Source: Elusimicrobiaceae bacterium (GTDB lineage Bacteria; Elusimicrobiota; Elusimicrobia; Elusimicrobiales; Elusimicrobiaceae). Taken from it: a DNA stretch of 10,279 nt. Each line of letters opens with the position of its first letter. The first letter of the stretch is position 1. Location of the stretch: assembly GCA_017647245.1 (NCBI GenBank), contig JAGCKY010000149.1:1-10279 (forward strand), in the 5' to 3' direction. Of this stretch, positions 910 through 7,558 are shown one piece after another. Position numbers and translations under genes: made by a program. The notes below the pieces were generated by a model. The model had not been told where the DNA came from, ran no database searches, and was given only the letters and a program-made list of their open reading frames with translations.

Positions 910-937
910 TTGACTTGTTTTTTTTTTTTGGTACAAT
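910..937 (+). promoter_or_regulatory. Promoter of first pilin, 16 bp spacer with T12 tract
   Basis: A sigma-70-like promoter: -35 TTGACT (910-915) and -10 TACAAT (932-937). The spacer 916-931 is 16 bases and consists of TG, twelve T, then GG. The AT-rich sequence just upstream (about 886-905) could act as an UP element. The predicted transcription start near 944 leaves a leader of about 137 bases containing the palindromic element. The homologous promoter of the second pilin has thirteen T and a 17-base spacer, so T-tract slippage would be expected to change promoter strength. The boxes are read from sequence; the start site is inferred. Confidence 0.75.
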
Positions 938-964
938 ACAGGGGTACGTGAATATTTTAAATGT

Positions 965-1061
965 CGTCATTGCAGGCGTGGACCTGCAATCCAGCGTCGT
1001 TTATGAGAGTAGTTTTTCCTTATAAACGGCTCTGGATCCTGGATCCATGTCCGGGATGACG
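965..1061 (+). repeat. Cloverleaf-like palindromic element in pilin leader, copy A
   Basis: The outer arms CGTCAT (965-970) and ATGACG (1056-1061) are complementary. They enclose three hairpins: ATTGCAGG/CCTGCAAT (969-976 with 983-990, loop of 6), CCAG...CGTTTAT/ATAAACG...CTGG (991-1004 with 1022-1035, loop of 17, one mismatch plus a G-T pair), and CCTGGA/TCCGGG (1038-1043 with 1050-1055, loop of 6). The outer stem and first hairpin share two bases, as at a multi-branch junction. The layout, with GTCATT, ATCCAG, CTGGAT and ATGAC blocks, resembles short palindromic intergenic repeats found in many bacterial genomes. It lies wholly in the predicted 5' leader and ends just before the ribosome binding site, so it may affect translation or transcript stability. 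Confidence 0.8.
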
Positions 1062-1080
1062 GATTAAAGGAGAGTATTTT

Positions 1081-1626
1081 ATGAAAAAAGCATTTACGCT
1101 GATTGAATTATTAGTCGTTGTTTTAATTATCGGTATACTGGCGGCGATTGCTCTGCCACAATATGAAAAGGCCGTGTGGAAAAGCCGCTACGCACAGGCA
1201 AAAGCAATGGGGATTAGTTTAGCGGAAGCCATGGAAGTGTATTACATGGCAAACGGAAATTATACTGCAGACATTGATAATTTAGATGTAAGTATGCCAG
1301 GTATTACAAGTACAACTTGTGATACGGAAGAAAAAAGAAAGACTGCCAGTGCGTGTTGGTGGTATACAGCATGGGGAATGTGCGTTTTGGAGACAAGGGG
1401 GCGCGTGTTCTGTAAAGTGAAGCGCGGAGGAGAGAGTTATTTAGGATATAGTATATTTCTGCCTAACAGCAGTGTCTATCGTGGAGAGGTTTACTGTCAT
1501 GCAATGAGCGCTTTTAAAGGGTCCACTCCGAATGCATCAGATCTGAATTACCAGATTTGTCAAGCAGAGACGGGTAAAAGAAATCCGGTGCTGACGTGGT
1601 CAGATGAGCCGGGTTTTTTATACTGA
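1081..1626 (+). CDS. Type IV pilin (PilE/PulG-like), first of pair
   Basis: Prepilin-like structural protein, 181 residues, expected to be cleaved by a PilD-type peptidase and assembled into a type IV pilus or pseudopilus. The very short leader MKKA is followed by the class III motif FTLIELL, with Glu at +5 of the mature protein (E9), and a hydrophobic helix to about residue 25. Ala rather than the usual Gly is at -1. The globular part has VYYMANGNYT and LDVSMPG, typical of PilE-like proteins, and six cysteines (80, 92, 101, 111, 139, 160), enough for three disulfides. It ends with a CQxETG motif (160-165) shared with the next pilin. A strong Shine-Dalgarno lies upstream. The body uses more AGA/GGA codons than neighbouring non-pilin genes. 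Major pilin versus minor pilin or pseudopilin cannot be decided from sequence alone. Confidence 0.93.
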   Translation: MKKAFTLIELLVVVLIIGILAAIALPQYEKAVWKSRYAQAKAMGISLAEAMEVYYMANGNYTADIDNLDVSMPGITSTTCDTEEKRKTASACWWYTAWGMCVLETRGRVFCKVKRGGESYLGYSIFLPNSSVYRGEVYCHAMSAFKGSTPNASDLNYQICQAETGKRNPVLTWSDEPGFLY

Positions 1627-1629
1627 TTT

Positions 1630-1698
1630 TTATTTTTTCTTTTTGCTTTTTTTAGCGGGAGTTTTGGCCGGGGCCGTTAAAAATTTCAAAAATAGGGC
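1630..1698 (-). pseudogene. Possible remnant of an amidase-like gene 3' end
   Basis: Read on the minus strand, the spacer between the two pilins gives an open frame ending in TAPAKTPAKKSKKKK and a TAA stop at 1632-1630. The amidase at 2428-4299 ends in SAKKTKSKKK and TAA at nearly the same distance after a pilin stop codon. Further in, the DNA around 1674-1692 (CCGTTAAAAATTTCAAAAAT) resembles 2483-2500 of the amidase (ACCGTAAAAATTCAAAATA), where the protein reads ILNFYG against FLKFLT here. No start or ribosome binding site exists, so this is not a gene. Homology to the amidase tail is an inference; lysine-rich ends can look alike by chance. Part of the same stretch is also present upstream of promoter A (872-909), but without the lysine-rich end. 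Confidence 0.4.
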
Positions 1699-1727
1699 TT
1701 GACTTGTTTTTTTTTTTTTGGTACAAT
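1699..1727 (+). promoter_or_regulatory. Promoter of second pilin, 17 bp spacer with T13 tract
   Basis: -35 TTGACT (1699-1704) and -10 TACAAT (1722-1727). The spacer 1705-1721 is 17 bases (TG, thirteen T, GG), the length usually optimal for sigma-70 holoenzyme. Both boxes are identical to those of the first pilin, so the one-base spacer difference is the only change in the core promoter. The second pilin is therefore predicted to be the more strongly transcribed of the two in this particular sequence. Confidence 0.75.
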
Positions 1728-1754
1728 ACGGGGGTACGTGAATATTTTAAATGT

Positions 1755-1851
1755 CGTCATTGCAGGCGTGGACCTGCAATCCAGCGTCGTTTATGAGAGT
1801 AGTTTTTCCTTATAAACGGCTCTGGATCCCGGATCCATGTCCGGGATGACG
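1755..1851 (+). repeat. Cloverleaf-like palindromic element in pilin leader, copy B
   Basis: Identical to 965-1061 except for one base: C1830 replaces T1040 in the third hairpin, turning a U-G pair into C-G, so pairing is kept in both copies. It occupies the same place between promoter and ribosome binding site. Confidence 0.8.
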
Positions 1852-1870: not shown

Positions 1871-2410
1871 ATGAAAAAAGCATTTACGCTGATTGAATTA
1901 TTAGTCGTTGTTTTAATCATCGGCATTTTAGCCGCCATTGCCTTGCCGCAATATCAAAAAGCGGTAATGAAAACTCGTTATGCCGGACTGAAAAATCTGG
2001 TAAGAGGTATCACCACCGCGCAACAAGTGTATTATCTGGCTAACGGAGAATATGCTACAAAGTTGGATGATTTGGATATTAGTTTGCCGGCAGGATATGA
2101 CCCGGAAAAGAGCAGTGATAATCAATACGTGTATGAGTGGGGAAGTTGTGAAACCTATATAAATGCTTCAGAGAAATTGGCGAGCAGTTGTCATAATAAA
2201 CAAATTAGATTATTATACCAAGAAGGCTTGGGCCCCGATTTAATCAGAGACTGTTATGTATTGCGTACCGAGTCCGAGCAAAATACGGATTTACCACTGC
2301 CTAATGCAGTATGCCAAAACGAAACAGGTCTGACGGTTGAAGATAGTAGAGGACGATTTAATAGTATTTCTTTAGGCGAATTTACAAAATATGCCCGCTA
2401 TAGATATTAA
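1871..2410 (+). CDS. Type IV pilin (PilE/PulG-like), second of pair
   Basis: A 179-residue prepilin-like protein with the same first 26 residues or so as the preceding pilin: MKKA leader, FTLIELL with E9, and a hydrophobic helix, then PQYQKAV. The middle shares VYYLANGEYA and LDDLDISLP with the family, but the C-terminal half differs strongly from its neighbour. There are four cysteines (93, 107, 128, 148) instead of six, and the shared CQxETG motif is at 148-153. The same AAAGGAGAG Shine-Dalgarno sets the start. It has its own promoter copy and so need not be cotranscribed with the first pilin. Its stop lies 17 bases from the stop of the convergent amidase, with no clear hairpin terminator between them. 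The role is structural or surface-related; whether the two proteins alternate in one fibre is unknown. Confidence 0.93.
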   Translation: MKKAFTLIELLVVVLIIGILAAIALPQYQKAVMKTRYAGLKNLVRGITTAQQVYYLANGEYATKLDDLDISLPAGYDPEKSSDNQYVYEWGSCETYINASEKLASSCHNKQIRLLYQEGLGPDLIRDCYVLRTESEQNTDLPLPNAVCQNETGLTVEDSRGRFNSISLGEFTKYARYRY

Positions 2411-6342: not shown

Positions 6343-6759
6343 ATGAAAAAAGGATTTACCGCGATAGAAATTGTCATCACAATGGTGATTTTTGCGGTAC
6401 TTTTGGGATTGACGGTACCCAAATTTATCGGACTGATTCACAAAGCGCATGAAGGCAGTACCAAACACGAACTGGTGCGTTTGCGCAGCGCCATTGCCGC
6501 CTATTACGGCGAGCATCAAGGCGTATATCCGACAGATAATTTATCCTGCTTGGTACCGGACTATATTGAAGCCATTCCGACGGCCAAGGTGCCCGGCTTT
6601 GCGCCTTCTGCGCAAGTGTCTGTGGGGAATAGTCAAACCGCACTGACGGAAACGGGCGGCTGGGCATATATCAATGAGCCGGCAGACCCGCGCTTTGGCG
6701 ATGTGTTTGTTAATACCACCAAAACAGACAGCTACGGCAAAGCTTGGCATACACATTAA
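6343..6759 (+). CDS. PulG-like pseudopilin / type IV pilin-like protein
   Basis: A 138-residue prepilin-like protein. The leader MKKG with Gly at -1 is canonical, followed by FTAIEIV with Glu at mature position +5 (E9) and a hydrophobic helix to about residue 25. The C-terminal part has VYPTDNLSCLVPDYI, then GWAYINEPADPRFGDVFVN and DSYGKAW (106-135), which resemble the C-terminal region of GspG/PulG major pseudopilins. It is clearly different from the two pilins at 1081-2410: no CQxETG end and only one cysteine (C69). The Shine-Dalgarno AGGAG (6334-6338) directly follows the stop of the M20 gene. The prepilin peptidase starts 16 bases after its stop, so substrate and processing enzyme are likely cotranscribed. 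It could serve a pilus or a type II secretion-like machine. Confidence 0.9.
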   Translation: MKKGFTAIEIVITMVIFAVLLGLTVPKFIGLIHKAHEGSTKHELVRLRSAIAAYYGEHQGVYPTDNLSCLVPDYIEAIPTAKVPGFAPSAQVSVGNSQTALTETGGWAYINEPADPRFGDVFVNTTKTDSYGKAWHTH

Positions 6760-6775
6760 TTTGTGAGGGATTGAT

Positions 6776-7558
6776 ATGAACGATATGATATTGATTTTTG
6801 CGGGGCTGTTCGGTGTGATTATCGGCAGTTTCCTAAATGTCTGCATTTACCGTATCCCCAACGGAAAATCCATTGTGTGGCCGTCGTCTTTCTGCCCTAA
6901 ATGCGGTAAACCGATTAAATGGTATGACAATATCCCGGTGCTCAGTTACATTTTGTTATGGGGCAAATGCCGCTTTTGCAAAGCGCCGATTTCCGTGCAA
7001 TATCCGCTGGTGGAAGCGTTTACCGCGCTGCTGACGGTATTGTTTGTGTGGAAATTGGGCCTTACGCCGTGGACGGCGGTAGTATTGGTGGCGGTATACG
7101 TGCTGATTATTTTGTCTGTGATTGACATGCAGCTGATGATTATCCCGGACCGCTTTTCTATCGGGCTGATTGTGTTTGGGCTGGCGGTATCGTGGCTAAA
7201 TCCGAATTTTGACGGAACGGCGTGGCAACACTTTTTGCAAAGTTTGCTCGGTGCGAGCGTGGGATTTTTCGGCACGCTGGCGATGGCTTTGTTGGGGTAT
7301 GCCCTGTTTCGCAAAGAGGCCATGGGCGGCGGTGATGTAAAACTGATGGGCGGTATTGGTGCGTTGATTGGCTGGGAGGGCGTGATTACGACGGTGATTT
7401 TTGCGTCTGTCTTGGGTCTGATCTATTCCTTATATCTCATGATTTTTAAAGGAAAAAAACGCGGCGATGCTATTCCGTTCGGGCCGTTTTTGAGTATGGG
7501 TGCGCTGATTAATTTATTTTATTTAGTCACGCCGTATATGCTGACTATTGAATTGTAA
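6776..7558 (+). CDS. pilD: Prepilin peptidase / N-methyltransferase (A24A)
   Basis: Inner-membrane aspartic peptidase that cuts the short leader from prepilins and pseudopilins and usually N-methylates the new N-terminus. The protein has 260 residues with about eight hydrophobic segments. The cytoplasmic N-terminal domain contains FCPKCG (C40, C43) and KCRFCK (C65, C68), the paired CxxC zinc motif of the bifunctional enzymes. Catalytic aspartates are seen at VIDMQLMIIPD (D117) and GGGDVKLMG (D187). FGPFL (235-239) is the conserved C-terminal motif. GAGGGA (6765-6770) five bases before the ATG is a good ribosome binding site. It is the last gene of the plus-strand run and is followed by a hairpin terminator. 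It presumably processes the upstream pseudopilin and the two pilins at 1081-2410, though a second prepilin peptidase elsewhere cannot be excluded. Confidence 0.95.
   Translation: MNDMILIFAGLFGVIIGSFLNVCIYRIPNGKSIVWPSSFCPKCGKPIKWYDNIPVLSYILLWGKCRFCKAPISVQYPLVEAFTALLTVLFVWKLGLTPWTAVVLVAVYVLIILSVIDMQLMIIPDRFSIGLIVFGLAVSWLNPNFDGTAWQHFLQSLLGASVGFFGTLAMALLGYALFRKEAMGGGDVKLMGGIGALIGWEGVITTVIFASVLGLIYSLYLMIFKGKKRGDAIPFGPFLSMGALINLFYLVTPYMLTIEL

Follow-up and report, generated by a model that had tools for sequence, protein, structure and literature searches.

The question raised by this locus is whether a single thymine, by which the promoters of two neighbouring pilin genes differ, represents a switch of expression, a departure from a preferred form, or an error of assembly. 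The window, that is, the whole stretch of 10,279 nucleotides that was analysed (contig JAGCKY010000149.1 of assembly GCA_017647245.1), comes from an Elusimicrobiaceae bacterium, most likely a gut species, the genome of which is available as a draft, metagenome-type assembly of 1.117 Mb in 188 contigs, with a completeness of 78%.

Inspection of the sequence revealed the same arrangement, TTGACT-TG-T(n)-GG-TACAAT, in both pilin promoters (910–937 and 1699–1727), and as the arrangement is otherwise identical, the change from T12 to T13 results in spacers of 16 and 17 bp, respectively (Table 1), these lengths being those of a metagenome assembly, which may be off by one through PCR stutter. When 872–1127 is aligned with 1661–1917 (a 256-bp match), the two copies differ by two substitutions and one indel, which lies within the T run. 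The preliminary description had reported the identical boxes, the two run lengths with their spacers, and the run as the sole indel between copies of some 256 bp, all of which is confirmed here. The two sites also appear to be promoters of the pilin genes, with a homopolymer as part of the spacer, as had been proposed. Both were recovered by a consensus scan of 800–2500, each with 10 of 12 matches and with hexamers of the sigma-70 type at a distance within the range of 16–18 bp, but the scan returned eight sites where 4.5 (sd 2.1) are expected in shuffles, so that it carries little weight by itself. A TG before the -10 box was found at only two of the eight sites, which are the two pilin promoters, and at promoter 1 this extended -10 is formed by the final T of the T12 run and the G that follows.

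Table 1. Coordinates of the promoter elements, pilin genes, and leader elements of the two pilin units in the window.
Feature	Coordinates	Strand	Basis
-35 box TTGACT, pilin promoter 1	910..915	+	sequence; consensus scan
T12 run in the spacer of promoter 1 (16 bp spacer)	918..929	+	sequence; consensus scan
-10 box TACAAT, pilin promoter 1	932..937	+	sequence; consensus scan
Leader palindrome of pilin 1, one long hairpin	963..1061	+	genome repeats; fold of 944-1085, z -5.95
Pilin 1, 181 aa, prepilin N-terminus MKKAFTLIELL	1081..1626	+	PF07963 28.7 bits (cut-off 21.2); TIGR02532
-35 box TTGACT, pilin promoter 2	1699..1704	+	sequence; consensus scan
T13 run in the spacer of promoter 2 (17 bp spacer), a minority length in the promoter family	1707..1719	+	sequence; genome-wide counts
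-10 box TACAAT, pilin promoter 2	1722..1727	+	sequence; consensus scan
Palindromic element, second copy, in the leader of pilin 2	1753..1851	+	alignment of the two copies
Pilin 2, 179 aa, N-terminus as in pilin 1, remainder different	1871..2410	+	PF07963 28.4 bits; PilE/PilA N-terminal matches

The products of the two genes resemble Type IV pilins and pseudopilins in their N-terminal prepilin cleavage/methylation motif, which scored above the cut-off of both PF07963 and TIGR02532, and in the case of pilin 2, the search against solved structures returned PilE and PilA chains, with matches confined to the N-terminus. Neither product, however, reached the cut-off of any named pilin equivalog model in the NCBIfam search, and the profile searches recovered no family that covers most of either sequence beyond the N-terminal motif. 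The products are probably components of a surface structure, presumably exposed on the cell.

The profile search for PF07963 in the genome of origin returned 137 matches, 136 of them over the cut-off, and this genome also contains 124 T runs of nine or more bases, against approximately 12 expected in 1.117 Mb with the base composition of the window, so that the runs cannot be attributed to chance. Among the 100 runs listed from these 124, 79 precede a pilin by no more than 500 nt, on its coding strand. When up to 500 nt upstream of each of the 137 pilins was surveyed for a run of at least nine T on the coding strand, 100 had one (80 T12, 10 T13, three T11, three T10, two T15, one T14, and one T9), and four further pilins have an A12 in its place, in the form TTGACA-AATC-A12-CAAAAT or an AACC variant, with a spacer of 16 bp. 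Neither type of run precedes 24 of the 137 pilins, each read over at least 350 nt, which include five neighbouring pilins on contig C134, and the remaining nine, with less than 350 nt of upstream sequence read, were left unjudged. The four A-run promoters (contigs C56, C61, C95, and C145) constitute a second class, in which the homopolymer on the coding strand is A. The presence of about 100 such promoters in the genome rules out the T12/T13 pair as an isolated switch.

The genome contains 53 exact matches to the core TTGACTTG-T(n)-GGTAYAAT, with T12 in 46, T13 in four, T10 in two, and T10GTT in one, and T12 predominates in each of the four larger subclasses of the -10 box (43/50 for TACAAT, 11/13 for TATACT, 11/15 for TATGAT, and 9/11 for TACGAT). 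The spacer could be read in 93 pilin promoters of the T type, in which it measures 16 bp in 78, 17 bp in eight, 15 bp in two, 14 bp in two, and 12, 18, and 19 bp in one each. In two cases, a T13 on C184 and a T15 on C102, the loss of a flanking G leaves the spacer at 16 bp. In seven other pilin promoters (on C109, C77, C38, C124, C148, C65, and C85), TTGAC is lost and TTG-T11 to T13 is kept, and in most of the seven, a consensus TATAAT is found further downstream, at a distance of a few bases.

These counts bear directly on the classical ON/OFF interpretation, under which the 17-bp spacer (T13) would be the ON or stronger state and the 16-bp spacer (T12) the weaker one, as the preliminary description had predicted. 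There is precedent for a switch of this kind, given that in the vlp system of Mycoplasma hyorhinis, the promoter region of each surface lipoprotein gene contains a homopolymeric A tract, and changes in the length of this tract switch the gene, according to an excerpt of PMC10502178. The longer run is also the more productive in the porA gene of Neisseria meningitidis, where the output of a poly-G run between the -35 and -10 boxes is graded from 11G through 10G to 9G, according to an excerpt of PMC3639595, and because of this gradation, a change from 16 to 17 bp need not be an ON/OFF event at all. Applied to the present family, however, this interpretation would assign weak expression to some four fifths of the promoters that could be read in this genome, and to the commonest spacer class in four relatives, and it is contradicted by a compensation between flank and run length (see below) that holds 16 bp rather than 17, all of which makes it improbable. 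The predicted ranking thus finds no backing in the counts; which of T12 and T13 is the stronger cannot be read from the sequence.

The same promoter design is found in other members of the family, with TTGAC-(T8+)-TAYAAT sites in 18 of 90 genomes, including that of the window. A slightly wider pattern recovered 85 sites in the genome G019, with T12 in 64 and a 16-bp spacer in 64, many of them with other flanks (TTGACACG..GCTACAAT). The spacer of 16 bp is also the commonest form in G016 (11/24, with T12 in 10/24 and the others shorter) and in G025 (9/22, with T12 in 13/22), and among the matches listed from the 57 of G038, T12 was present in 14/18 and a 16-bp spacer in 13/18; a further 49 matches were counted in G085, where lengths were left out of the tabulation. 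The genome G004 combines two types of promoter, TTGACA-TCG-T11-GC-TACATT and TTGACA-AATC-A11-C-GATAAT, both with 16 bp, and among the matches listed from its 65 A-type sites, A11 with 16 bp was found in 56/60. The A-type pattern is present in seven of the 66 genomes of the genus, again including that of the window, and is represented by A12 with 16 bp in 11/15 sites of G038 and by a looser form in G032 (16 bp in 18/38 rows). A-type pilin promoters with A11 or A12 were observed at the G004 loci L338–L357 and L388, mostly with a spacer of 16 bp. Single examples in the sister genus have spacers of 19 or 14 bp. A wider scan of the genome collection matched many other groups, and Elusimicrobia accounted for five of the 74 cases among the matches listed.

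The association with pilins also extends to the relatives, in which a pilin start lies within 700 nt of 42 of the 48 distinct T-type sites that were fetched, and within 420 nt, on the matching strand, of 33 of the 49 T10+ sites in seven genomes, the genome G032 being common to both samples. Given the 42/48 sites of the relatives and the 79/100 runs of the genome of origin, a promoter that serves genes of all kinds is unlikely. The number of T10+ runs tracks the first-look count of pilin candidates across the 66 genomes of the genus (Spearman 0.84, with 80 candidates scored per genome), and the two are uncorrelated in the 18 genomes of the sister genus (rho 0.22). The first-look candidates, partly scored, reach 238 in G004 (1.5 Mb) and 257 in G020 (1.7 Mb), which is an extreme expansion of one type of gene.

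A further indication of a preferred length comes from the bases of the spacer that lie outside the run. In the relatives, four such bases are accompanied by T12 in 32/45 T-type promoters, and five by a run of 11 in 11/17 T-type and 14/14 A-type promoters, and because four outside bases usually go with a run of 12 and five usually with a run of 11, the distance of 16 bp is kept. In the 86 promoters from relatives, the ratio of runs of 12 to runs of 11 is 33:4 when four bases lie outside the run and 1:25 when five do (Fisher p 2e-12, ignoring kinship). This test leaves out the other run lengths and eight promoters in which the outside bases number two, three, or six, and its sites had been selected for a minimum run of 7 to 10, depending on the search. 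The compensation is not steady in those eight fetched promoters. Given that 16 bp is the spacer in 78/93 promoters and the length towards which the relatives compensate, the T12/16-bp form is best seen as the set-point of the family, and the T13 as one of its ten T13 variants. As the compensation aims at 16 rather than 17, it is the T13 of promoter 2 that would be the deviant of the pair. A family optimum at T13 and 17 bp, as a further candidate, finds no support in either the spacer counts or this compensation.

The indel between the two copies was attributed by the preliminary description to slippage. The variation among copies is what slippage would produce, given that 20 of the 100 pilin tracts of the genome depart from T12. 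When the promoters were paired by the similarity of their flanks (99 of the 100, one being omitted for a cut flank, and shared ancestry being ignored), T length differed in 36% of the 11 pairs with 0–1 flank substitutions, in 22–33% of the pairs with 2–15, and, among the 1991 pairs with at least 16, in 39%, so length turnover looks quick relative to substitution. Six promoters have a nearest neighbour with an identical flank, and all six share its T length. The attribution to slippage stands in part: the indel is of the slippage type and similar copies do vary in T length, but the close pairs are few and the six promoters with identical flanks match their neighbours, so that slippage as the source of the variants is moderately supported. 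The narrowness of the length distribution implies, in turn, a restoring force, either selection or biased slippage.

An assembly or PCR artefact, in which the true run length would be equal in both copies, might be suspected in a draft of 188 contigs of the metagenome type, with near-identical copies in tandem. This is, nevertheless, highly improbable, given that ten T13 and ten other non-T12 lengths were found at separate loci, against 80 T12, and that length differences are also present in the assemblies of the relatives.

Given this, the reading judged to have about an even chance of being correct is that of a genome-wide array of pilin promoters with homopolymer spacers, held at 16 bp and jittered by slippage. 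Both promoters of the window are members of a dispersed family, comprising about 100 pilin promoters, in which one pure A/T homopolymer makes up most of the spacer and has its length set to place the boxes 16 bp apart, and the polymerase would use TTGAC and the extended -10 at this distance. T12 would be the length in normal use, and T13 would have arisen by slippage once the unit had been duplicated in tandem. Slippage would repeatedly generate variants of one or two bases at single pilin loci, with spacers of 15 or 17 bp, for example, that may alter the output, and selection on expression would pull these variants back to 16 bp. A minority of the pilin genes would have an altered output at any time, which would amount to graded, multi-locus phase variation around a set-point. 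In 14 of the 15 cases with an off-length spacer, the frame behind it is open for 168 aa or more, consistent with a recent or reversible change, but this does not discriminate, because most of the frames behind T12 also look open. Several findings run against this reading. A single spacer length is shared by 84% of the readable promoters, which is tighter than a freely flipping switch predicts, and the fraction of pairs differing in length drops to 22% before it rises to 39%. The lengths are also looser in G016, in G025, in the A-type promoters of G032, and in the eight fetched promoters without steady compensation, and they differ in the examples from the sister genus, in which tract and pilin numbers are uncorrelated. 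The conserved length could also derive from mutational bias, or from a recent amplification of pilin cassettes, instead of selection.

The tightness of the spacer is explained about equally well, together with the purity of the run and its two orientations, by a structural promoter element without functional switching, in which an A/T run would be needed at 16 bp by the polymerase or by a pilin regulator, and the slippage variants would be noise removed by selection. A pure A/T run forms stiff DNA with a narrow minor groove, and as such a property of the duplex predicts, the run has the same length in either orientation, T12 and A12, within one genome. The purity of the run is almost complete, with one interrupted run in the 104 T- or A-type promoters of the genome of origin, and none seen among the 24 readable pilins that lack a pure run. 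The positions beside the run are also more conserved than the -35 box proper, given that in 99 promoters, each base of the TTG before it is retained in 97/99 and those of the GGTA after it in 95–98/99, against 89–93/99 for TTGAC. This explanation is less at ease with the spacers of 14, 15, 17, 18, and 19 bp that precede open frames, with the many short runs of G016, and with the lack of any obvious need for the most slippage-prone form of A/T-rich DNA. It is considered quite possible, if somewhat short of an even chance, and is nearly as likely as the 16-bp set-point with slippage.

The set-point reading has partial counterparts in known systems. The vlp genes of Mycoplasma hyorhinis are few and clustered, with the A tract lying within the spacer, and they provide the nearest multigene precedent, given that they are also a family of surface proteins with a homopolymer in their promoters; the pilin genes, in contrast, number about 100, are dispersed, and have runs of mostly 11–12, with most at one length. 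The porA promoter shares with the pilin promoters the location of the homopolymer between the -35 and -10 boxes, but it belongs to one gene, has a G run, and varies demonstrably in clones, whereas the pilin family has a T or A run and spans many genes. In the vlhA family of Mycoplasma gallisepticum, a GAA repeat lies upstream of each promoter, and the one or few genes with a favoured length are expressed. The vlhA and pilin families are alike as multigene surface families in which every copy has a repeat tract and one length is favoured; this length is, however, restricted to one or a few genes in vlhA and found in most of the copies of the pilin family.

Homopolymer spacers, and slippage within them, are already known. 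To judge from the searches, the novelty lies in the scale (about 100 genes), the class of gene, the phylum, the two orientations of the run, and the compensation to 16 bp, given that no publication on the pilin promoters or pilin families of Elusimicrobia was found in the openly licensed PMC literature. If the runs slip in living populations, they would give a single genome, from a little-studied phylum, a very large number of promoter-based contingency loci, and would help to explain the retention of over a hundred pilin genes in such small genomes. A contingency array of this kind, with some hundred or more pilin promoters that slip independently and with most pilin genes having a homopolymer tuner of their own set to 16 bp, in which a clonal population would be a mosaic of pilin mixtures and the run lengths a combinatorial surface code, is conceivable, though rather doubtful. 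Even without slippage, a homopolymer spacer that tracks its flanks to hold 16 bp would provide a natural test of the influence that A/T runs within the spacer have on promoter activity.

The leaders of the window pilins contain a palindrome of about 100 bp between the promoter and the ribosome-binding site (Table 1), which recurs, in either orientation, in the leaders of other pilins in the genome, and several of its lone matches in the genome adjoin pilin starts. The window has no match in Rfam. Some pilins have leaders of only about 32–37 nt, which are too short for this element.

The surroundings of the two genes suggest how they may have been acquired. No pilin motif was found within about 1.5 kb of the amidase-gene orthologue in any of 20 loci of relatives (0/20), and in 18 of them the M23 peptidase gene is no more than about 0.6 kb from this orthologue; in nine further loci, the M23 gene is absent from the stretch covered. 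The two window pilins (872–2410) separate the M23 peptidase and Amidase_3 genes, which are close neighbours without a pilin in those 18/20 loci. The simplest reading is that the window pilins are additional genes at the M23/Amidase_3 locus in this lineage, and pilins may have entered the genome as single cassettes. A third pilin-like gene, in the 6343–7558 region, is not preceded by a T run and has a prepilin peptidase gene (6776–7558) immediately 3' of it; the best NCBIfam match of the pilin-like gene is GspG, below the cut-off.
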